Shown here: positions 3,283 through 23,935 of the stretch, in pieces | How the letters are laid out: the number at the start of each line of letters is the position of its first letter | Position numbering within the stretch: position 1 is the stretch's first letter | NCBI GenBank assembly: GCA_902175065.1 | Contig: CABIIJ010000018.1 | Span: 62,001 to 126,000 of the forward strand | From: an uncultured Comamonas sp. | GTDB lineage: Bacteria > Pseudomonadota > Gammaproteobacteria > Burkholderiales > Burkholderiaceae_C | Reading direction: 5' to 3' | DNA length: 64,000 nucleotides | Translations under genes and position numbers: made by a program | Notes under the pieces: generated by a model | Databases searched by the model: none | What the model was told of the DNA's origin: nothing | The model's input: only the letters and a program-made list of their open reading frames with translations

Positions 3283-5277
3283 TTATCCAATCGTTGGCCC
3301 ACGCGGCCGTCCAATCTCCCACGACACCCCGCCGCCGCGCACTGTCGCAGCGAGCTGCTGCCCCAGCCGCTGTTCGATCACCGGCTTCCACGGCACGAGG
3401 CTGAACCCCTTGCCGTTGTCGAGCATGGCGTAACGCCCGCTGGCGAGCATGACCGAGCGCCGGTAGATGCCGGTCACGCGCTGCCCGTCGGTGACGGGCC
3501 GATGCTGTAGTCCGGTGTCGGCGGCAATGTCCTTGGCGACCTGCGCCAGTTCCCGATTGCGCAGCGTGCCCAGCAGGTTCCGGGCGAGGATCACACGCTG
3601 TCCCCGCCGCTCGGCCAACCCCTGTTCGGCCAGGAAGTCAGCGCGCTGCTGCAAGGCTTGCTTGGTATCGCCGCCAAAGCCCAGGTCGCCCAGCCCCTTA
3701 CCGCCACCGATCAACTGCTGATCCAGCCAGGTGGCCCCAATCACGCGGGCCTGCCGCTCGATTGGCAGGTGCGATTTCAGTTCCACCGCCACGCCGCCCA
3801 GCCGTTGCGCGTCGTACTGGCGGCCACGCTCGGCCAGGTCGTCCGGCACCTTCCATAGTCCGTCCGCCACACGTTCCACAATGCCGGCCCGGCGCAAGGC
3901 TTCCAGCCGGCGAACGTGGGCCGCGACGACCTCCTGCGGGTCGCGGCCGGGCTTGGCTCGGCCTTGCTCGATCGCCAGGTGATGATCGGTGCGGTACAGG
4001 CCATCGCTCGCCAGCGCGACGATGTTCTTGTCGGCTGACCGCACCTCGGCGGCACCGCGTACCTCCACCACGGCTCCGGTGGGATAGTTCACCAGCTCGT
4101 CGCGGGTGTTCAAGGCGACATAGTGGGCCTTGCCGTCCACGCCGTCGATGACCAGATAGCCACGGTCGTGCAGTTCGTCGGCCAGCCCCTTCGCGGCCAC
4201 GCGACCGATGACGGTACGGCCATCGTCGACCGGCTCAAACACCGCCAGCTCGCGGGGCTGACCGCTCATGGCGTGCTGCATGGTGCGGATGATGTCGCCA
4301 CGCTCGCCCAGGGCGCGCAAGGTCTTCTCGGCGTCCGCATGGACGGCCCAGGTGCCGGGCTGCGTCTCGTCGGCTAGGCCCAGGCGCTGCAAGCGTTGCA
4401 GGCGGCCGATCAGCAGCAGGCGCTGGCGTTGTAGCCCGGGTTCGTTGAAGCGTTCGATCTGCACCCAGCCATCCTCGCCGGCCTCGCGCTGCAACGTGCG
4501 GTCGAGGCTCGTCCACCGCTCTTGCTCCACCTCGCGCTGCAAGGTCTGCTGGATCTCCAGTTCGGTGCGCGGCCCCAGCCATTCCGTCTCCAGCTCGGCG
4601 GCGCGATGGCGGAAGCCGTGGGCGATGTAGTCGCCGGCGATGATGAGGTCTTTGCCGGTGTCGTCGCGTCCGCGCACGATCAGGTGGGTGTGCGGGTTGT
4701 CGGTGTTCCAGTGATCCACCGCCACCCAATCCAGCCGCGTCCCCAGGTCGGCTTCCATGCGGTTCATCAGGTGCCGGGTGTAGGTGTGCAGGTCGTCCAG
4801 TTCGGCCCCGTCCTCCGGCGAGACGATGAAACGGAAATGGTGCCGGTCGTCCTGGCAGCGTACCTTGAAGGCGTCGAGGTCGGCTTCGTCGGCCTGCGGC
4901 CCGTAGGCCCGGCCCGGTTCGCCATCGCGGCCCGCGCCGTCGCGCTCGATGTAGCGCAGGTGCTTGGCGAGCGACTGCGGGCTGGCGTTGCGCTGGTTGA
5001 CCAGCAGGGTCTTGATGGTCACGCGCCGCGACATGGGCGTGAGCTTCGCGCCCGCGAAACGCGCCGCCGTGTGGCCGCGCCCCAGGCGTGAACCGGGCCG
5101 CTGGCCGGCGCGCTGGCCGTTGCCGCCAGTGGCAGGACGGCGCACGGCCGGCTTGCCGCTGCTGGCTTTGCCCGCTTGCTTGAGCACCTTGGAAACGAAG
5201 CTCTGCCCCTGGCCCTTGCCCCGGTTCTTGGGGGCGCTGGGGCGCACGCGGAAATCGTCGTCGCGGCGGTCGTTCAT
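3283..5277 (-). CDS. Relaxase/mobilisation nuclease with DUF3363 domain (Tn4371-like ICE)
   Basis: MNDRRDDDFRVRPSAPKNRGKGQGQSF start; HFRFIVSPEDGAEL and DHWNTDNPHTHLIVRGRDDTGKDLIIAGDYI relaxase motifs; followed by the TraF-like/DUF2840/ParA order typical of Tn4371-like ICEs. Confidence 0.9.
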   Translation of the reverse strand: MNDRRDDDFRVRPSAPKNRGKGQGQSFVSKVLKQAGKASSGKPAVRRPATGGNGQRAGQRPGSRLGRGHTAARFAGAKLTPMSRRVTIKTLLVNQRNASPQSLAKHLRYIERDGAGRDGEPGRAYGPQADEADLDAFKVRCQDDRHHFRFIVSPEDGAELDDLHTYTRHLMNRMEADLGTRLDWVAVDHWNTDNPHTHLIVRGRDDTGKDLIIAGDYIAHGFRHRAAELETEWLGPRTELEIQQTLQREVEQERWTSLDRTLQREAGEDGWVQIERFNEPGLQRQRLLLIGRLQRLQRLGLADETQPGTWAVHADAEKTLRALGERGDIIRTMQHAMSGQPRELAVFEPVDDGRTVIGRVAAKGLADELHDRGYLVIDGVDGKAHYVALNTRDELVNYPTGAVVEVRGAAEVRSADKNIVALASDGLYRTDHHLAIEQGRAKPGRDPQEVVAAHVRRLEALRRAGIVERVADGLWKVPDDLAERGRQYDAQRLGGVAVELKSHLPIERQARVIGATWLDQQLIGGGKGLGDLGFGGDTKQALQQRADFLAEQGLAERRGQRVILARNLLGTLRNRELAQVAKDIAADTGLQHRPVTDGQRVTGIYRRSVMLASGRYAMLDNGKGFSLVPWKPVIEQRLGQQLAATVRGGGVSWEIGRPRGPTIG

Positions 5278-11073: not shown

Positions 11074-11364
11074 GTGGCGGCAAAGTACTCATTGGCGAAG
11101 GCGTTGAAGACGGTCAGGAAGGCGCGTGGCTTGAGCCAGGAAGCGTTCTCCGACGTGTCGAGCCGCACCTATATGAGTACGCTAGAACGCGACCTGAAAA
11201 GTCCGACCCTGCACAAGCTGACCGAGCTGTGCGAGGTCATGGACGTGCATCCGCTCACGTTGTTGACGCTGGCCTTTGCGGGCGACAGCACGCACAAGGC
11301 TGACGAGTTGTTGGCGCAGGTGCGCCAGGAACTTGAGGCGGTACTGAACTCTGATGGAGATTGA
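11074..11364 (+). CDS. XRE-family HTH regulator
   Basis: LAKALKTVRKARGLSQEAFSDVSSRTYMSTLERDLKSPTLHKLTELCEVMDVHPLTLL. Confidence 0.9.
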   Translation: MAAKYSLAKALKTVRKARGLSQEAFSDVSSRTYMSTLERDLKSPTLHKLTELCEVMDVHPLTLLTLAFAGDSTHKADELLAQVRQELEAVLNSDGD

Positions 11365-11372
11365 GAAGCGAC

Positions 11373-11936
11373 ATGGCATATCGAAATGGAAACTACACCG
11401 CCTTTTACGTTGCAGAGCCATTCCATCCCAGCTCGCTAGGTGCCAATGCGACGAAGGATTTTCAGTATTACAACACCCTACGGATGTGGAAAGGCGCTGA
11501 TGCGACGTTCCCCTTCGTTGATTCGCACGACAAAACTTACAGTGTCCGCGATGGCAGCGATTGGGAATACACACTGAAACCCAGGCTCAGGGAGCGCCTT
11601 CGGAGCTCGAAGAACATTATCCTCATCTTGAGTTCGATCACGACGAATTCCCGCGCCCTTCGAGAAGAAATCGACTACGGGATCAACGATCAAGGGCTTC
11701 CTGTCATTGTCATCTATCCCGAATATGCCACCAAGGAAAGTCTGCTTGTCGGCGGATCATTGAAGCAGGCGGTCAAGAACCTGTGGGGAAATCTTCCCGT
11801 GTTCCGGGATTCGATGAACAAAGTCCCGACGCTTCATGTTCCGATGAATAAAGAGCTCATCAAAAAATCCTTGCAGGACGGCGAGTTTATGGTTGGGAGC
11901 ATGAAGGCCCCAGGCACCTACAGATACAACCCATAA
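11373..11936 (+). CDS. thsB: TIR-like domain protein, ThsB-like (Thoeris)
   Basis: MAYRNGNYTAFYVAEPF...FVDSHDKTYSVRDGSDWEYTLKPRLRERLRSSKNIILILSSITTNSRALREEIDYGI: Thoeris TIR (DUF1863-like); next gene is TM-macro. Confidence 0.85.
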   Translation: MAYRNGNYTAFYVAEPFHPSSLGANATKDFQYYNTLRMWKGADATFPFVDSHDKTYSVRDGSDWEYTLKPRLRERLRSSKNIILILSSITTNSRALREEIDYGINDQGLPVIVIYPEYATKESLLVGGSLKQAVKNLWGNLPVFRDSMNKVPTLHVPMNKELIKKSLQDGEFMVGSMKAPGTYRYNP

Positions 11937-11957
11937 TCAATCGACATATCGGAGCGA

Positions 11958-12797
11958 ATGATTCACGTCATGGCGAAGGTCAACTTTTTTGACAAGCGGG
12001 TCATCAAGAAATTCCTTGAGATCACCGCTGTCGTCAGCGGTACGCTGTCATTCATAGTTATTTTTGTTGACGTTCCTGCCGAGTGGAAGCTAAAGGCTGG
12101 CTTGGCAATACTGGCACTCACCTACGTGGGGATATGGCTCTGGTCGAACAACCTGAACAGTATCGACATCAATGTTGAGGGGAGCGATGTCGCGATCAAG
12201 ACCGGCGACATTTTCCACCAGCCGGGATTGAAGGCAATTGCCTTCAATGAGTATTTCGACACTCAGGTGGACAACAAGATAATTGGCGAGACTTCTCTCA
12301 ACGGAGTTTTCATCCAGAAGCATCTCGGCGTTCCGATTTCCGAATTAGACCGCTACATCGAGGAATACGCTTTTGATGAAAGTGAAGTCCTGGAGGAGAA
12401 CGAGGCAAGGAAACACGGTAAGAAGAAAAGGTATCAGATAGGCACGATTTGCCTGTACAAAGACTATCTCCTGACCGCGTTCTCCAAGTTCGATGAGAAC
12501 AACAAGGCGCTACTAACGATGCCGGAGTACCTTGAGTTCCTCATTAATTTCTGGGACAAGGTAAACAACGTGTACGCCCAGCAAAGCGTATCGACAACAA
12601 TCTTTGGATCAGGAATCACGCGAATCAAAGGACACAAGAATATTTCCGACGAGGATCTACTGAAAATCATGCTGTGGACATTCAGAATCAGTGAGATGCG
12701 ATTCAAATATCCCGCGAAGCTGACCATCGTGATCCACAAAGACAAGATCGACCAGATCAATCTTCTCGATATCAAATCCGCCAGGAACGGCGTGTAG
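11958..12797 (+). CDS. thsA: TM-macro domain protein, type II ThsA-like effector
   Basis: Two N-terminal hydrophobic helices (FLEITAVVSGTLSFIVIFVDV, LKAGLAILALTYVGIWLW) then a macro-like domain (TGDIFHQPGLKAIAFNEYFDT, VSTTIFGSGITRIKG); 21 nt downstream of thsB. Confidence 0.82.
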   Translation: MIHVMAKVNFFDKRVIKKFLEITAVVSGTLSFIVIFVDVPAEWKLKAGLAILALTYVGIWLWSNNLNSIDINVEGSDVAIKTGDIFHQPGLKAIAFNEYFDTQVDNKIIGETSLNGVFIQKHLGVPISELDRYIEEYAFDESEVLEENEARKHGKKKRYQIGTICLYKDYLLTAFSKFDENNKALLTMPEYLEFLINFWDKVNNVYAQQSVSTTIFGSGITRIKGHKNISDEDLLKIMLWTFRISEMRFKYPAKLTIVIHKDKIDQINLLDIKSARNGV

Positions 12798-13116: not shown

Positions 13117-13824
13117 CTACAGATTCGCCAACGAAATGGGATAACCCTGAGCCGCCATTTCCTTTGCCAGAAGTGGCCCTGCATCCTTTTGCAGATTGTC
13201 CTTGAATGGGATATAGAGCAACCCTTGGATGTCGGATGGGCGCTCCATATTGTCTTGTTGCTTCATGAGAATGGCAACGTTCTTACGACCGAGCAGCGTA
13301 AGCATCATGCCCAATTCCATCACAACATTTTGGCGCGCACGGAACGCCTTTTCGTCTTCGTGACCAGCGCGGTAGCCCTCGTCGTCGGGCGTGGCCAGAA
13401 CCACAGCAAACTTTACTTCTGCCGTGTACTTTTCCAATTTCTCGATGATGGTCTGCCCTTCCGAAGGAAGTTGATCCAAGATCAACGGCTCAAGCCTCCA
13501 GCGGCGCAGCATCGCTTCAAGCTCGGTTCGGGCGGCATTATCGTGCCCATAAACCACGAATACCTTGCTGAGCATTGGCTTAGCAGCAGCGCCATTCTGT
13601 GGAGCTGGTGCCGCAGCCTGTGCAGGTTGCACGCCGAGGCAAGCCTTTACCGCCTCTTGGTTCTTGCCCTGAACATTGAAATTACCGGTGTGGTAGCTAT
13701 TGACGATTGCACCATTTTGCAAACGAAGTTGTGTGCCAGTGCCGTTCGCAAGTGCCGTCTCATTCGCAATCTGAAGATTGCCGGCCTGTAGGCAGGCCTT
13801 AATTTCGTCGAGAGTCATCGCCAT
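13117..13824 (-). CDS. TIR-like nucleotide-binding protein (CAP12/PF10137-like) with a distinct N-terminal domain
   Basis: SKVFVVYGHDNAARTELEAMLRRWRLEPLILDQLPSEGQTIIEKLEKYTAEVKFAVVLATPDDEG...RARQNVVMELGMMLTLLGRKNV; N-terminal NGTGTQLRLQNGAIVNSYHTGNFNVQGKN. Confidence 0.85.
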   Translation of the reverse strand: MAMTLDEIKACLQAGNLQIANETALANGTGTQLRLQNGAIVNSYHTGNFNVQGKNQEAVKACLGVQPAQAAAPAPQNGAAAKPMLSKVFVVYGHDNAARTELEAMLRRWRLEPLILDQLPSEGQTIIEKLEKYTAEVKFAVVLATPDDEGYRAGHEDEKAFRARQNVVMELGMMLTLLGRKNVAILMKQQDNMERPSDIQGLLYIPFKDNLQKDAGPLLAKEMAAQGYPISLANL

Positions 13825-13829
13825 TCCTT

Positions 13830-14315
13830 CTAAGCTCCCCAAATCGCTTTTTTCGCAGCTTCGCTAAGTACATCGACAACAATGTCGCGCACGCCAGATG
13901 CAACCGAAGCGCCGACCTTCGTCATCACCTTCTTGAATCGAAGGGATGCAACTTGAGTTTTTGGACTGTCTTTGGTCAATTCCGTCAAATCGGTACGGAA
14001 CTGCTGGACTTCTTCTGGCGACAGCTCTGCGCCTGCTTCCACTAGCTCAACAGCGCCAGCAATCTTGCGTTCAGTCCAAGGGAATCGGCTACCGCAGTTG
14101 TGGCAGAACGAGGGAGGCTCGTAATCACCACCCAAGCCGAAAACGCCTTCAACGTAGAAATCGCCGCGAATGGATGCGCTGCACGAAGGACACTGCATGA
14201 TGGTCTCTTCACCGCACTTAGAGCAGAACGCCTCTTGAAGCTCGGGATTCTGATCAGCGGCTGTTGTTGCGACATGCCCGTTAGGACAAACCTGTGCGAC
14301 CCGATATGTCCCCAT
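13830..14315 (-). CDS. DUF2321-like zinc-ribbon protein
   Basis: CPNGH..CSKCGEE..CPSCSASIRGDFYVEGVFGLGGDYEPPSFCHNCGSRFPW; ends 6 bp before the TIR gene. Confidence 0.8.
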   Translation of the reverse strand: MGTYRVAQVCPNGHVATTAADQNPELQEAFCSKCGEETIMQCPSCSASIRGDFYVEGVFGLGGDYEPPSFCHNCGSRFPWTERKIAGAVELVEAGAELSPEEVQQFRTDLTELTKDSPKTQVASLRFKKVMTKVGASVASGVRDIVVDVLSEAAKKAIWGA

Positions 14316-14408
14316 TGCGCTCCCTTGTTATTTATGCCGATAGATACGGCGTTGGTCAAATCAAGGGATTGTAAAGCAGCAGCGTGGAAATTGGAGGCAT
14401 GGATGACA

Positions 14409-14742: not shown

Positions 14743-16812
14743 TCAAGCGGCTAGCGCCACGGAGGGTTCATCTGCTGTTGCCTCGGCATCCTCCGGGGCG
14801 TCGTCCTGCTCCTGTGGTTCTGCCTGCGTGGCGTCCGGCCCTTCGGCCTTGAAGATGGCAGGCATCCAGCCCGTGCCGTCTGCCAGCCGCTCGGCTTCGC
14901 TGGCAATGTCGGCCTTCTTCAACTTCGCCAGCCGGGTGACGTGTGACGGGGCGAACCGCTCCACGGCTTCCAGAATTGCAGCCTTCGGCACATGCCGGAA
15001 ATAGCCCTCATTGGTGGGCTTCCACCATGCGGCCATGTCCAGCCTCACGGCCTGCGCGAGTTCTTCGCCCGGCTGCTGCCGTGTGGTGCGGGGTGTCACC
15101 ACGTCCACCGTGACGGCCACGCATACCGCCAGCAGCCGCACCAGTTCGTCTTGGGACTTCGCCAGCAGCGCGGCGAACAGTTCGGCGCTGTCCTCCGGCA
15201 AGGCTTCGCCCGCCACCTGTTGGAACTCGCGCAGCGCGACGGCGGCGGGGGATTCCGGCCAGTCGGGGGCCATGCCTTCCAGCCGGTCTTGCACTTTCAG
15301 GCTCACGCCCAGCGGCAAGTCGTGGCCGTGGTAGCCGCCTTGCAGCACCGTTTGCACCATGCCATGCACCAGCGCAGCCAGCGCCACTTGCGGATGCCGT
15401 GCCACTTCGATTTGCAGCGCGGCGGTGCGGTGGGCGCTCAACCGTTGCGCCAGCCGGTCGGACATGGCGGCGGTCTTGGGCTGCCCTTCGCTGTCTCCGT
15501 CCTCGCCCTCGTCGTCGTCGTCGTTCCCAGCATCCTCGCCGCTGAACCCTTGGCGCAGGCGTTCCAGCGTGCGCAGCGCCTTGGCTTCGGCCTCGCGCAG
15601 CAGCCCGCGATAAATCACGGCCTGACCGTTGCGGTCGGTGGTGACGATGGCACCGGCTGCGGCCTTCACGGTCGGGCCGTACTCCTGCAAGCCATCTTCC
15701 AGCGCCTGCAACTGCTCGCCCAGGGCTTCGCCTTCTTCCTGCAAGGCATCGGCCTCTTCCTCGTCGTCGGCGTCCAGCGCGTCATCCACGGCTGCGGCCA
15801 GTTCGTGCAGCTTGGTTTGCAGCTTCTCGATGCGGGCTGCTTCGCGCTTGGTCGGCTCGCGCCGCTCCCTCGGCGCACGCTGGAAGGCGTGCAGGTCGGC
15901 ATGGGTCACGGCGGGCGTGGCATCCACCCACGCCCAACCTTCGGCCTTCACCTCGGCGGCGATGCCTGCCAGCTTGTCTTGCGCCAGCCGTTCCAGCAGC
16001 GCGGCATCGGTCAGATACACGCCCGCATCGCCTTCCGCGAACAGGTCGCGGCGGATGCCGCCGCCTGCGGTTTCATAGCTGTCCAGCCCTACGAAGCGCA
16101 CCAGCGGATGCCGGTAGCCGTCAATTTCCCTTTCGGTGAGGCGGTCGCGCAGCGCGGACGGCTGGCGCTGCCACGTTGGGGCGTCATAGAAGGCGCTTTC
16201 CTGCGCGGCGTGGTCGTCGGTGATGGCAAGGGCCATCAACTGGTCGAGCGTCACGGCTTCGGCGCGGTAGTCGGCCAGCAGGCGCGGCGACACGTTCGCC
16301 AGCTTCAAGCGGCGCTGCACCACCAGCGGGGACACGCTGAAATCGGCGGCTATGTCCTCGATGGGTCGGCCTTCGGCCACCAGCGCGGCGAATGCCTCGA
16401 ACTGGTCGGCGGGGTGCATGGCTTCGCGTTGCACGTTCTCGGTGAGGCTGGCCGTGCGGGCGGTGCCATCGGCCACCAGCAGGCAAGGCACGTCCCATTC
16501 CTTGCTGATGCGGTGCTTCTTCGCCAGCAGCTTCAACGCGGCCAGCCTGCGGCCACCGGCCACCACTTCGTAACACTCGCCATCGGCGGCGGCAATCACG
16601 ATGAGGTTTTGCAGCAGGCCGACACGCTGGATGCTGGCGGCGAGTTCGGGGATGGACATGCGCGGGGTCTTGCGCACGTTGCGGCCAGCAGGACGCGACA
16701 CCAGCCGCGACAGCGGAACCAGAATCAGGTTCTTGGTCGGGTCGGCTGCTTCCAGCGGGATCGCGGCGGCGGTGTTGAGGGCGCGGGCTTCGGTTTGGGT
16801 AATGGCGTTCAT
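14743..16812 (-). CDS. ParB/RepB/Spo0J family partition protein (689 aa)
   Basis: LILVPLSRLVSRPAGRNVRKTPRMSIPELAASIQRVGLLQNLIVIAAADGECYEVVAGGRRLAALKLL; ENVQREAMHPADQFEAFAALVAEG. Confidence 0.92.
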   Translation of the reverse strand: MNAITQTEARALNTAAAIPLEAADPTKNLILVPLSRLVSRPAGRNVRKTPRMSIPELAASIQRVGLLQNLIVIAAADGECYEVVAGGRRLAALKLLAKKHRISKEWDVPCLLVADGTARTASLTENVQREAMHPADQFEAFAALVAEGRPIEDIAADFSVSPLVVQRRLKLANVSPRLLADYRAEAVTLDQLMALAITDDHAAQESAFYDAPTWQRQPSALRDRLTEREIDGYRHPLVRFVGLDSYETAGGGIRRDLFAEGDAGVYLTDAALLERLAQDKLAGIAAEVKAEGWAWVDATPAVTHADLHAFQRAPRERREPTKREAARIEKLQTKLHELAAAVDDALDADDEEEADALQEEGEALGEQLQALEDGLQEYGPTVKAAAGAIVTTDRNGQAVIYRGLLREAEAKALRTLERLRQGFSGEDAGNDDDDEGEDGDSEGQPKTAAMSDRLAQRLSAHRTAALQIEVARHPQVALAALVHGMVQTVLQGGYHGHDLPLGVSLKVQDRLEGMAPDWPESPAAVALREFQQVAGEALPEDSAELFAALLAKSQDELVRLLAVCVAVTVDVVTPRTTRQQPGEELAQAVRLDMAAWWKPTNEGYFRHVPKAAILEAVERFAPSHVTRLAKLKKADIASEAERLADGTGWMPAIFKAEGPDATQAEPQEQDDAPEDAEATADEPSVALAA

Positions 16813-18289: not shown

Positions 18290-19171
18290 ATGATCGAATT
18301 TACGGACAACGACATTCTCAAGTTGGACGAACGCTTTGCACAGGAAGACGTCCCATTCCATGCCCGCCCATTCCGTGCGGCGATGGAAATTCTTGGCGAT
18401 CGGTTTTCCATCGGGGTCGGCGGCAATCCCCAAGTGCGCGAGATCGAGCAGGCATATGAGCGGCTGATTCCCGAAGTCAAATTCACCTGGCCAGGCATGG
18501 GGACAGGCTTTGCCGCATCGGTGGATCGTGTCAGGAAAGTAACGATTGGCGTTGTCTTTGGAACCGTCAACATAACCGTCGATAAGGGGCTGGGCTTTTC
18601 AGGTCATCAGGAATGGGCTGCCTGGTGTCGCGGCGACCGCAAGATCGCAGAAAGATCAGCGTTCGCTTTTGCTGACATGCACGACCTTGTGTACGGCATT
18701 AATCGCGGGGCACAACACAAAAATGCCTCGACATTCTGGGGTCTTGCAGCCGAGCAACTGAAACTGGTTTCCGAAAGTCTTTCCCAGTCCGGTTCGATTG
18801 GCAGCGCAGTTCTGCAACCCATCTGCCTGACTGCCGAACTGGCAATGAAAGGCACGCTGTTGCATCTTGGCGTGCCGGAGAAGGACTTAAGAAACCCTAA
18901 ATTATTTGGCCACAACTTGAACAAGCTCGGCGAAAGAATGACCAAAGATAGCAGCCACAGGGATGATGCATTGCTCTTGCCGGCACTGAACAAGTTTCCT
19001 GACTATGTAGGTGATCGCTACAAGGAAACACAACTGACCCGGCTGGAGATTATTGCCTTGGCCTTGGATGCCCAGTTTGTCGCCGCTTCGGCCGTGAGGC
19101 GCATTTCTGGCGAGGACATGGCAAGTCAGATGGAAGCCGCAGCAGGCCCGCGTGGAAATTTCTTTCCGTGA
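18290..19171 (+). CDS. Hypothetical 293-aa cargo protein; possibly HEPN-like helical fold
   Basis: MIEFTDNDILKLDERFAQEDVPFHARPFRAAMEIL...AELAMKGTLLHLGVPEKDLRNPKLFGHNLNKLGERM; lies between repeat copies A and B. Confidence 0.6.
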   Translation: MIEFTDNDILKLDERFAQEDVPFHARPFRAAMEILGDRFSIGVGGNPQVREIEQAYERLIPEVKFTWPGMGTGFAASVDRVRKVTIGVVFGTVNITVDKGLGFSGHQEWAAWCRGDRKIAERSAFAFADMHDLVYGINRGAQHKNASTFWGLAAEQLKLVSESLSQSGSIGSAVLQPICLTAELAMKGTLLHLGVPEKDLRNPKLFGHNLNKLGERMTKDSSHRDDALLLPALNKFPDYVGDRYKETQLTRLEIIALALDAQFVAASAVRRISGEDMASQMEAAAGPRGNFFP

Positions 19172-19910: not shown

Positions 19911-20081
19911 AGCCATGTACTTCGCTTATTATCTATTCGTATAGATTTGATGCTTTCAGCCAGTATGCCGCACTCGACCATTGACTATGAAGACGCTGAA
20001 TATCACTGATGAGGTAGTGCTTCTATTGGTTCCCCTGTGGAATTCCATAGATAAGTTCGATTTAGCCTTTTGGAGAAAAAG

Positions 20082-21308
20082 ATGATTTCCGACGATTTGA
20101 TTGAAAAAACAAAACAATCCCTTAATTCCGCATTGAAGACTATTCAGCCATGCAGCCAAGATGAGGCAATGAAGTCAATAAGATCAAAAACCCAGATGGC
20201 AACGGGGAAATCATTGAAAGTAGCGGACGTAAAATCATATTTCCTCCTGCTAGATGCCATTTACAACAGTGACAAGAAAATAAGTCAAAGATTCAGCAGG
20301 GAAACCGTATATAAAATTATTGATGAGTGCGTTTTCTCAAGGGGATTTCTGGAAAAAGATTTCTCCAATGAAGATGCCTTGTCGCTAATAAAGACATTCA
20401 CAGACGCTATGCCAGAAAACGTCAAGATATTTGCACCAATATCAGGATTGAGGTTGGACAAGAACAAGACGGCGATCATCGGGCCTTTTGAAATCGGTTT
20501 TTCCTCGAAGCTAAAAATGCCAATCTCAAATGAGGATGGATACTATATATGCTCAGAAATAAAAAATAGCTACGATAATTCAAAGTCTATTGCTCTCGCC
20601 CATGAGGAGTTTCAGGAGTTCATCAATCTAATATTCTTCATGGCTGGAAAGAAAGATAATTCAATTTTCATAAAAACGGGACTTCCTTCCTATCCTAGCT
20701 ACACGCACCACCAAATGTATGTCGAGACTAGCTCATATCAAATACAAAGAGAATCTTTTGAATTTGGCGACACATCAATAAGCAACAAGATTGCCGAGAA
20801 AGTACCTGTAGATGACGATTTTTTTGTGAAAAATCCAAATTTCTCCAGACTCTGGGATTTTTATAAAGAAAGGAAAAACGGAAAAAAAATATCTGATTTT
20901 CACTCAAGAATATTAAATTGCTCAATTTCAATTGGTGAAGCAATAAAAAGCCAGAAGGAAAAGGACTCCGTTATCCACACGTGCATTGCCCTTGAGATCC
21001 TATTGTCTTACGATGAAGGTAGTCTTTTCCAAAAAAGCATTGGCGATCGCTTGGCGGATACATTTGTATTCATTATTGCAAAGGATAAAGAGGCTAGATT
21101 GCAGGCGAGTGCATTATTGAAAAAGGTTTACCGAATGAGGTCTGCCTTGGTTCATGGTGGAAGCAAGGAGATTGATCAGAGCTATGTCGGAATAATTCAG
21201 CTAACTAGAGCCGCTATTGCCGAGTTATTAACATCCGAAAAATACAAAGAGATAAATAAAATAGATAAATTATATGAAATGGTAAAGGATGCTCAGAATT
21301 CTTATTAG
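20082..21308 (+). CDS. AT-rich HEPN/ApeA-like protein, candidate abortive-infection factor
   Basis: C-terminal IHTCIALEILLSYDEGSLFQKSIGDRLADTFVFII...LLKKVYRMRSALVHGG with RxxxxH (RSALVH); base composition much more AT-rich than neighbours. Confidence 0.65.
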   Translation: MISDDLIEKTKQSLNSALKTIQPCSQDEAMKSIRSKTQMATGKSLKVADVKSYFLLLDAIYNSDKKISQRFSRETVYKIIDECVFSRGFLEKDFSNEDALSLIKTFTDAMPENVKIFAPISGLRLDKNKTAIIGPFEIGFSSKLKMPISNEDGYYICSEIKNSYDNSKSIALAHEEFQEFINLIFFMAGKKDNSIFIKTGLPSYPSYTHHQMYVETSSYQIQRESFEFGDTSISNKIAEKVPVDDDFFVKNPNFSRLWDFYKERKNGKKISDFHSRILNCSISIGEAIKSQKEKDSVIHTCIALEILLSYDEGSLFQKSIGDRLADTFVFIIAKDKEARLQASALLKKVYRMRSALVHGGSKEIDQSYVGIIQLTRAAIAELLTSEKYKEINKIDKLYEMVKDAQNSY

Positions 21309-21491: not shown

Positions 21492-22559
21492 TCAGGATTT
21501 TTCGCCAGGCTGCCGCTGCTCAATCTGCAACCGCGCCCGCTCGGTCGCCTGCTGCAACTTCTCGCCCAGCACCGCACGCGGCGGCAAGCTGGTCAGGTAC
21601 TCGGCAACGTGGATGCCCGACTTGTCCAGTTCAAGCAGTTCGATCTGCTCGCGCTTCTTGCCGGTGCAAAGGATGATCCCCAACGGCGAGGCTTCTTCCG
21701 GTTCCCGTTCGTGCTTGTCGAGCCAGCGCAGGTAAAGCTCCATCTGCCCCTTGTACGCAGCCTTGAACTCGCCGATCTTCAATTCGACGGCCACCAGCCG
21801 GCGTAGCTTGCGGTTGTAAAACAGCAGGTCAAGGTGGAAATCCTCGTCGTCGATCTGGATGCGTTTCTGCCGGGCGACGAAGGAAAAGCCCACCCCCAGC
21901 TCCAGCAGGAAGGCTTCCATTTCACGGATGATGGCCGTCTCTAGGTCGCTTTCCTGCCAGCTATCCCGCAGTCCCAGGAAGTCGAGGATGTACGGGTCGC
22001 GCATCACCAGCGCCGGGGTCATGCGCTGCGCATCGCGCAGGGTCGCAAGTTCCTGCGCGATGGTTTCTTCCGGCTTTTGGGACAGCGCCGTGCGCTCGTA
22101 CAGCATCGAGTCGATGCGCTCGCGCAGCGTCCTCACGCTCCAGCGTTCGGCGCTCGCCATCTGCGCATAGTAGTCCCGCTGGAGCGGGTCTTTCAGCGGG
22201 ATCAGCGCCAAGAAATGTGACCAGCTCAATTGTCGTGACAGTGAAACGACAATTCGCTCGTCCGGGTAGGCAACGGCGAACTGCACCATCCGGCGCAAGT
22301 TCTTGTCCGCGAAGCTGCGTCCGTAGTCGCGGACAAGCTGCGCGGCCAGAGACGGCAGGATTTCTTCGCCATACCCGGCCCGCTGCCCGGCCAGCACTTC
22401 CGTATGGATGCGCAGGCCGACGCGCCAGAACAGCAGAGTCAGTTCCGTATTGACCGCCAGGGCAGCGCGCTGGTTCGCTGCCTCGATCAATGCCCGAATG
22501 TCGCCCAGCAGCGCCGTCGGCGCTGCTGGTGACGCAATGGATGACTTGCGCCTAGTCAT
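21492..22559 (-). CDS. DUF1016 / PD-(D/E)XK nuclease family protein (YhcG-like)
   Basis: FWRVGLRIHTEVL..., DYGRSFADKNLRRMVQFAVAYPDE, QIDDEDFHLDLLFYNRKLRRLVAVELKIGEFKAAYKGQMELYLRWLDKHE; ATGA overlap with the integrase. Confidence 0.9.
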   Translation of the reverse strand: MTRRKSSIASPAAPTALLGDIRALIEAANQRAALAVNTELTLLFWRVGLRIHTEVLAGQRAGYGEEILPSLAAQLVRDYGRSFADKNLRRMVQFAVAYPDERIVVSLSRQLSWSHFLALIPLKDPLQRDYYAQMASAERWSVRTLRERIDSMLYERTALSQKPEETIAQELATLRDAQRMTPALVMRDPYILDFLGLRDSWQESDLETAIIREMEAFLLELGVGFSFVARQKRIQIDDEDFHLDLLFYNRKLRRLVAVELKIGEFKAAYKGQMELYLRWLDKHEREPEEASPLGIILCTGKKREQIELLELDKSGIHVAEYLTSLPPRAVLGEKLQQATERARLQIEQRQPGEKS

Positions 22560-23761
22560 GCCGTTGCCTCCGCCGCCGGGGGGCGTTTGGTGCCAGTGAT
22601 CGTCTTGCGCCGGCTCGCCACCAGTTCGGCGGCTTCCCGAACCGGCTTGTCCTCGGTGTGGACATAGCGCATGAACATCGCCACGGTCTTGTGCGCCGTC
22701 AGCACCATGCCGACTTTGACCGGAATACCTGAATTGGCAATATCGGTCGCGGAGCGGTGGCGGATGCCGTGCGTCCCGACGTGCGGCACGCCGGCCGCCT
22801 TGAGCGCCCGAGTCCAGCCACCGTAGTGCTCGCCATAGGTCAGGTGCTTGGCCGGGTCGTTGGGTGACGGCAGAACGTAGGGGCAACCTTCCTGGCGGGG
22901 GGCGGTCGAAAGCAGGCGGTGGGCTTCCTCGCTCAAAGGCTTGGACATGCCGCCTGTCTTGCTGTCAGGCCACACCACGCGCCGGTTCTCCAGGTCGATC
23001 CAACTCCATTCGAGCCCGCAGATTTCTGAGCGGCGACCGGCGAACTCGAATTGCAGGCGGATCGCCAGAGGGATGACGTAGTTTTCCAGTCCCTCGGCTT
23101 CCAGATGCTCCAAATGGCGGAAGATGCGCGCCATTTCCTCGTCATTGATGAGGCGGGTAGCCTTGCCGGCCGGGAACATGGGGACATGTCGGCAGGGATT
23201 GGTGCCATCCGGGCGGAAGCCCCACACTTCGGCCATGTTGAACATCTTGCGCAGCACGCCGAAGGTGTGATTCGCGTCGGCCGGCTTGTAGGCCAGCTTT
23301 TCCATCAGCCCGGCAATGTCGGGCCGCTTCACGTCCTGCACCTTCTTGCGGCCCAGCAGTGGGACGATATTGCGGTCTATGACCGCCTGATAGCCTTCCT
23401 GCGTGCTGACCTTGTTGCGCTTCTTGGAGTAGTCCTCCATGAACTTCTTGCACAACGCTTCGACCGTCGGCGCTTTCCGCGCATCGGCCTTGGCACCGCC
23501 AGGGTCGCCGCCCCGGCGAACCTCGGCCAGCCAGTCCTGCGCCATGACGCGGGCCTGCTCCACGGTCAGTTCCCCGAACAAGCCCAGGGCGGGCTTGCGG
23601 CGCTCCCCGGTGTTCGTCCGGTACTGGAGCATGAACACCTTGCGGCCCGCCGGGGTAATCTTGCACAAGAAGCCGGGCACCACGGTATCCCGTAGTTCGA
23701 CGGCCTGCGCCTGGGGTTGCGCCGCATCAACGGCGGTCTTGGTGAGCTTGATCTTAGCCAT
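22556..23761 (-). CDS. int: Tyrosine site-specific integrase (DUF4102 arm-binding + phage integrase)
   Basis: MAKIKLTKTAVDAAQPQAQAVELRDTVVPGFLCKITPAGRKVFMLQYR; FAGRRSEICGLEWSWIDLENRRVVWPDSKTGGMSKPLS; HGIRHRSATDIANSGI. Confidence 0.93.
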   Translation of the reverse strand: MAKIKLTKTAVDAAQPQAQAVELRDTVVPGFLCKITPAGRKVFMLQYRTNTGERRKPALGLFGELTVEQARVMAQDWLAEVRRGGDPGGAKADARKAPTVEALCKKFMEDYSKKRNKVSTQEGYQAVIDRNIVPLLGRKKVQDVKRPDIAGLMEKLAYKPADANHTFGVLRKMFNMAEVWGFRPDGTNPCRHVPMFPAGKATRLINDEEMARIFRHLEHLEAEGLENYVIPLAIRLQFEFAGRRSEICGLEWSWIDLENRRVVWPDSKTGGMSKPLSEEAHRLLSTAPRQEGCPYVLPSPNDPAKHLTYGEHYGGWTRALKAAGVPHVGTHGIRHRSATDIANSGIPVKVGMVLTAHKTVAMFMRYVHTEDKPVREAAELVASRRKTITGTKRPPAAEATA

Positions 23762-23935
23762 GATGACTCCTCGGAAAGACCCGTTTCCAAGAGCCACATG
23801 GGGGCCAAGCGGACGGAAGCCGGGTCAGGTTTCAGAAAGCACCGTCATATGTTGAACTCGCCTAACCCATTGATAAACCTGCTGTATCGGGCTGCGGCGT
23901 AGTCCTGCGAAATTCGGTGCTGGAGTCATCGTGAA

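Follow-up and report, generated by a model that had tools for sequence, protein, structure and literature searches.

The question raised by this locus is whether two adjacent genes, one encoding a TIR protein and the other a zinc-ribbon protein of family DUF2321, act together in defence. They lie in a 64,000-nucleotide stretch of DNA from an uncultured Comamonas sp., which is called the window here. A preliminary description had proposed them as an undescribed two-gene defence module, and its coordinates, strand and both families were correct, as PF10137 and full-length DUF2321 matches showed. Our best reading, held with a little less than even confidence, is an ICE-carried two-gene anti-phage cassette that combines a TBP-lobe TIR NADase with a reusable, non-enzymatic DUF2321 partner.

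Arrangement of the locus and its mobile-element setting

The features of the locus are listed in Table 1. The DUF2321 gene was upstream and the TIR gene downstream, both on the minus strand, and the distance from the stop codon to the first ATG was 5 nt, not the 6 bp first reported. Because AAGGA abuts this first ATG, a second ATG at 13818 (MTLDEIK...), which gives a protein of 233 aa, is better spaced and is the likely start. Rfam and tRNA scans gave no matches, and promoter and terminator matches were near chance level. Both families were present as one copy each in the source genome.

Table 1. Positions of the two genes, their parts and the neighbouring Thoeris genes in the window
Feature	Position	Strand	Evidence
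DUF2321 protein, 161 aa	13830..14315	-	PF10083 2.2e-56; zinc-ribbon half residues 1-81 and helical half 82-161
Zinc-ribbon region of DUF2321 (C10, H14, C31, C34, C42, C45, C71, C74)	14073..14315	-	Conserved candidate ligands; same part fused to DpnII-MboI nuclease in Klebsiella L008
Junction AAGGA, 5 nt, Shine-Dalgarno-like	13825..13829	-	Sequence conserved in L034, L036, L038
TBP-lobe-TIR protein (lobe putative), 235 aa from first ATG	13117..13824	-	PF10137 1.6e-35; PADLOC PDC-S35 1e-114
Putative N-terminal TBP-lobe-like domain, residues 1-65	13630..13824	-	Profile search and alpha-beta4-alpha model; motif [YFW]-x-x-G-x4-Q-G
TIR domain, residues 86-235, predicted NADase set R164/N166/E170/D198	13120..13569	-	Foldseek and invariant residues
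Thoeris ThsB, neighbour outside the cassette	11361..11936	+	PF08937 3.9e-26; PADLOC ThsB 1e-79
Thoeris ThsA with macro domain, neighbour outside the cassette	11958..12797	+	PF20016 1.7e-63; PADLOC ThsA 2.4e-125

The pair was placed between ParB (14743-16812) and an XRE-Thoeris block, so that the Thoeris genes were indeed its neighbours. The local GC was about 0.52-0.57 at the pair, in comparison with mostly 0.62-0.72 in the backbone. The backbone around the pocket encoded a DUF3363 relaxase, RepA (RPA), ParA, DUF2958, DUF932 and a signal peptidase. These genes on the flanks agree with the ICE cargo pocket proposed earlier, the ICE label being assigned by gene content, and we take the element to be a Tn4371-like ICE.

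Other genes of the window were also recorded. A 412-aa ORF at 20070-21308, of low GC (0.36-0.39) and cargo-like, had no Pfam, PADLOC or NCBIfam match, and a YhcG/DUF1016 nuclease (PDC-S02) at 21492-22559 adjoined an integrase gene (22556-23797). The 293-aa ORF at 18290-19171 had no family match; by sequence, the equivalent flank of the related locus L034 carried a PrrC/RloC-like ATPase ORF, and this difference suggests a second swap site.

The TIR domain and its relatives

The CAP12/PCTIR family PF10137 matched residues 87-208 of the TIR protein with 122 bits against a cut-off of 24.7. The PADLOC model PDLC05006 (PDC-S35) matched residues 3-234 on model positions 1-230 of 231, with the N-terminal domain included. 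The TIR half is thus already catalogued, as a one-gene candidate without DUF2321. PADLOC, NCBIfam and the literature searched gave no named system with the DUF2321-TIR pair, so that the word 'undescribed' held for the pair and failed for the TIR half alone. The literature searched contained no relevant paper on DUF2321 or PDC-S35, and the literature and databases together gave no published PDC-S35 mechanism and no described trigger for such single-gene TIR candidates.

Residues R164, N166 and E170 aligned with R78, N80 and E84 of SfSTING, and D198 aligned with D110. Active-site roles are described for these SfSTING residues, D110 being the one contributed by the dimer mate (PMC9402430). All four residues of the TIR protein were invariant across 15 relatives. 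The best Foldseek matches were TIR-STING structures 9lmq/7un8 (E from 1e-6 to 1e-5), and SPARTA TIR-APAZ (1e-4) and SARM1 were also found. The TIR protein is therefore predicted to be an NADase with a complete active-site set, in line with the NAD-consuming role that had been suggested for it.

The PF10137 subfamily and the active-site residues are common to this protein, CBASS Cap12 TIR-STING and Pycsar PycTIR. However, the window protein has a putative TBP lobe where Cap12 and PycTIR have a STING or cyclic-nucleotide domain. Membership in CBASS as Cap12 was rejected, since the NCBIfam Cap12 equivalog scored 32.8 bits against a cut-off of 450 and there was no STING domain. No cyclase or CD-NTase was recognised in the scanned neighbours. 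Pycsar membership was rejected as well. The likeness to SPARTA (short pAgo with TIR-APAZ), a hybrid-triggered TIR NADase, would be one of mechanism only, with the guide absent here; neither protein and none of the scanned neighbours had an APAZ or pAgo match, and membership was rejected.

The N-terminal domain

The N-terminal domain of about 65 aa noted in the preliminary description exists. It was predicted as helix-four strands-helix (alpha-beta4-alpha) and was followed by a low-confidence linker at residues 66-83. A profile of this domain alone, searched against 177,635 PDB sequences, gave seven matches at E<=10, the top four being RNase HIII 3vn5 (1.1e-4), LsoA 5hy3 (0.022), and RNase HIII 4py5 (0.075) and 2d0a (0.24). 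The proposed resemblance to RNase HIII was thus recovered by profile search, with a best TBP-lobe match that was short, about 30 residues. Pfam DUF3378 matched weakly in two of ten relatives (best 0.0038). An aromatic residue ahead of the G-x4-QG motif was present in 15 of 15 aligned relatives; a looser pattern was found in 31 of 84 unique TIR ORFs, with at least one false match.

RNase HIII and RnlA/LsoA are named as bacterial homologues of the TBP lobe, in which an aromatic residue makes the contact to the RNA-DNA duplex in its minor groove, and in RnlA the lobe is fused to an antiphage RNase (PMC7221094). The lobe is tied to DNA-RNA hybrid binding in RNase HIII, and is mentioned with RNase LS, not with TIR (PMC3710099); TIR was also absent from the survey of TBP-lobe proteins in PMC7221094. 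The window protein resembles RNase HIII and RnlA/LsoA in its putative N-terminal lobe and in the aromatic-G-QG motif; the effector differs, being TIR here, RNase H in RNase HIII and a HEPN RNase in RnlA/LsoA. From the short match and the predicted fold, the domain is putatively a TBP lobe of the RNase HIII/RnlA type, and the TIR protein therefore probably has its own nucleic-acid sensor. For this reason the earlier division of labour, with the zinc protein as the sensor and the TIR only as the effector, is too simple.

The DUF2321 protein

PF10083 covered the DUF2321 protein along the whole model (1-157 of 157) with 190.3 bits against a cut-off of 24, and phrog_16447 also matched (6e-45). The eight candidate zinc ligands were invariant over nine divergent homologues, and their spacing gave two sites, followed by predicted helices. 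The AlphaFold model had a pLDDT of 83, with helices at 79-159. R, K and E residues were conserved, and a conserved catalytic His or Asp pattern was absent. The structure gave no significant match in PDB and viral structure libraries. Its non-significant best fold matches included TFIIB (zinc ribbon and helices), here beside a TBP-lobe protein, which is probably a coincidence. We infer that DUF2321 is a non-enzymatic binding protein.

The order of a zinc ribbon and then a helical domain is also seen in PD-T7-4, which has a zinc-finger-like domain and a ribonuclease-family helical domain. The PD-T7-4 profile matched DUF2321 weakly (5e-5 to 3e-4), in three of 14 members. A PD-T7-4-type HEPN RNase was rejected for DUF2321: its C-terminal half lacks a conserved His, and other HEPN RNase motifs are likewise missing. 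DUF2321 was rare: with the source genome counted, it was found in 3 of 301 genomes at family level, 2 of 399 at phylum level and 1 of 399 at order level.

Conservation and movement of the pair

A scan of genome contigs with DUF2321 gave 17 loci. In five of them, L034-L038, the same TIR was directly downstream. Identity to the window pair was 99-100% in L034 and L035, 95-99% in L036 and L037, and 86% and 92% in L038. The ICE flanks were common to the window and L034-L037. Thoeris membership was rejected: Thoeris was separate and in the opposite orientation (11361-12797), and L036 and L037 had the pair without homology to this stretch of the window.

In L038, homology to the window was limited to 13117-14326, that is, both genes and the upstream leader, and the pair was surrounded by chromosomal genes read from the sequence as serS-, pyrH- and frr-like. 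Between the window and L038, dS was 1.16 for DUF2321 (dN/dS 0.065) and 0.95 for the TIR gene (dN/dS 0.039), and the AAGGA junction was the same. The L038 context, dS of about 1, low dN/dS and same junction indicate that purifying selection has preserved the pair and that the two genes were transferred jointly. The proposed co-transcription is plausible, and selection on both ORFs means that both are real genes. The pairing, seen in the window and five other genomes, one in an unrelated context, is not accidental as judged from these sequences. It was restricted to one lineage of six genomes.

In plasmids with the same ICE-type backbone, matches spanned only the flanks and the pair genes were absent. 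These plasmids, together with the occurrence outside the ICE in L038, mark the pair as cargo. They also speak against a role of the two genes in ICE regulation or maintenance outside defence, such as transfer control or competition among mobile elements (plasmid exclusion). This explanation, to which the presence of the genes on an ICE and within prophages lends some support, as does the action of the TIR system SPARTA on invading plasmid DNA, is very unlikely.

Each gene without the other

In 12 of the 17 DUF2321 loci there was no adjacent TIR; L046 encoded a distant PF10137 protein some 2 kb from DUF2321. A scan of viral contigs with the TIR alignment gave 80 loci, and none of these was positive with the DUF2321 HMM in flanks of about 3 kb, although the same HMM recovered every DUF2321 locus. 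The phage TIRs nearest in sequence, L060-L062, had 44-50% identity and were solo. Viral-contig scans with the Proteobacterial DUF2321 and with the single TIR protein gave no loci. The rare co-occurrence that the preliminary description had named as counting against its proposal was thus partly borne out, the pair being restricted to one lineage of six genomes, DUF2321 being elsewhere solo or with other partners and the 80 viral TIRs lacking it. The obligate two-gene module that it implied was rejected, as TIR-only and DUF2321-only loci exist.

In Escherichia phage vB_EcoM-606R2 (L051:3878-4639), a TBP-lobe TIR of the same architecture was flanked by genes for DNA polymerase and helicase, and the same placement was seen in many similar viral contigs (L063-L092). 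In Staphylococcus and Lactobacillus temperate phages, DUF2321 stood alone, in antisense orientation, within the lysogeny/replication region. A DUF2321-only block of 518 bp was 99.6% identical between Stutzerimonas (L041:5978-6495) and Brachymonas (L042:91-608), in unrelated contexts. By its sequence, this block appears to be a one-gene mobile unit that moved between two genera.

These data bear on the nearest rival explanation, in which a TBP-lobe TIR and DUF2321 are two independent, self-sufficient defence genes that share one promoter and ICE pocket and do not cooperate. Each gene is mostly solo elsewhere, DUF2321 moves alone in the 518 bp block, and in PADLOC the TIR counts as a candidate by itself. 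However, the two genes and their junction remained intact across a dS of about 1 and were transferred jointly, and DUF2321 was found repeatedly directly 5' of effector-like genes and once fused (below). Independence of the two genes is a serious alternative, which we consider somewhat improbable.

DUF2321 with other effectors

In Pseudomonas oryzihabitans (L045:6001-7946), DUF2321 was 18 bp before DarT1 (PF14487 1.3e-11; E. coli C7 DarT1 structure 5.8e-31), which was accompanied by its NADAR antitoxin (PF22397 6.9e-89). The gene after DUF2321 encoded an Mrr_cat-like protein in L039, at a distance of 16 bp, and a NERD-like protein in L046, at 43 bp, both calls being below the Pfam cut-off; in L050 it encoded a pentapeptide protein, at 15 bp. 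The Rhodanobacter locus L046:6001-9696 held DUF2321, the NERD-like protein and a second PF10137 TIR within 4 kb, and is a possible defence island. In Klebsiella (L008:4001-4756), one frame carried PF10083 at residues 4-84 and PF18742 (DpnII-MboI) at 103-249 (1.9e-59), the nuclease domain replacing the helical half of DUF2321. The deposited L008 annotation begins at 4271 and omits the zinc-ribbon part. Counting TIR, DarT1, Mrr-like, NERD-like, pentapeptide and fusion as six distinct arrangements, an effector-like domain came directly after the zinc ribbon in five, in the next gene or in the same protein, although these are small counts.

Such an order could also fit a toxin-antitoxin-like pair, in which the first gene, DUF2321, neutralises a TIR toxin encoded by the second. 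The gene order, the near-coupled start and the position of DUF2321 before other toxic effectors agree with this, and a related CAP12-clade TIR, TirC, has high toxicity if expressed by itself (PMC13142454). However, DarT1 in L045 already has its own NADAR antitoxin, solo DUF2321 is common, and the Klebsiella zinc ribbon is within the nuclease protein itself. The 80 viral TIR loci also lack DUF2321 within about 3 kb, so that the type II pattern of an antitoxin wherever the toxin occurs failed here. We regard neutralisation by DUF2321 as improbable; this reading and the non-defence reading are less likely than independence of the two genes.

Proposed mechanism

In the cassette that we favour, the TIR gene would encode an abortive-infection NADase that begins with a TBP lobe of its own. 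Judged from RNase HIII, its homologue, the lobe would most likely recognise double-stranded nucleic acid, the best candidate ligand being an RNA-DNA hybrid from phage replication or transcription. Binding of the ligand would bring TIR domains together, and D198 of one TIR could then complete the active site that R164, N166 and E170 form in the next; the destruction of NAD+ would stop the infected cell. DUF2321 may tune this triggering through binding to either the target or the TIR protein, and it is reused with DarT1, with PD-(D/E)XK-like nucleases and in one natural fusion.

Counted for the cassette were the TIR family with its full active-site set, the TBP lobe by profile, the PADLOC listing of this architecture as a defence candidate, and the Thoeris and ICE-pocket neighbourhood. 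Retention of the pair in six genomes, with the L038 copy in a different context, was counted too, as were the partners lying 15-43 bp after DUF2321 in L045, L039, L046 and L050, and the L008 fusion. Against it stand the closest phage TIRs (about 50% identical) without DUF2321, solo DUF2321 in Gram-positive phages, the short TBP-lobe match, the L039 and L046 nuclease calls below cut-off, and a DUF2321 without a structural match. Because TIR relatives occur without DUF2321 and DUF2321 occurs solo, functional dependence of the two genes is putative only. It is rather unlikely that the TIR is a guide-free NADase activated by RNA-DNA hybrids and DUF2321 a plug-in zinc-ribbon adaptor that licenses unrelated effectors (TIR, DarT1, PD-(D/E)XK nucleases), as an unnamed mix-and-match platform.

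Significance

TIR NADases are a major immune effector class in bacteria and eukaryotes. TIR NADase defence was already known, and the TIR half was catalogued as a candidate. As far as the searched libraries show, three points are new: the putative assignment of the N-terminal domain to the TBP lobe, the retention of the two genes as a pair, and the recurrence of DUF2321 beside effectors that are unrelated to each other. The putative TBP lobe offers a concrete, testable ligand for a TIR trigger, an RNA-DNA hybrid or other duplex. If confirmed, the position of DUF2321 directly 5' of several effector classes, and its fusion to one, would mark a sensor or adaptor that different effectors have in common, and one by which new defence systems could be sought.
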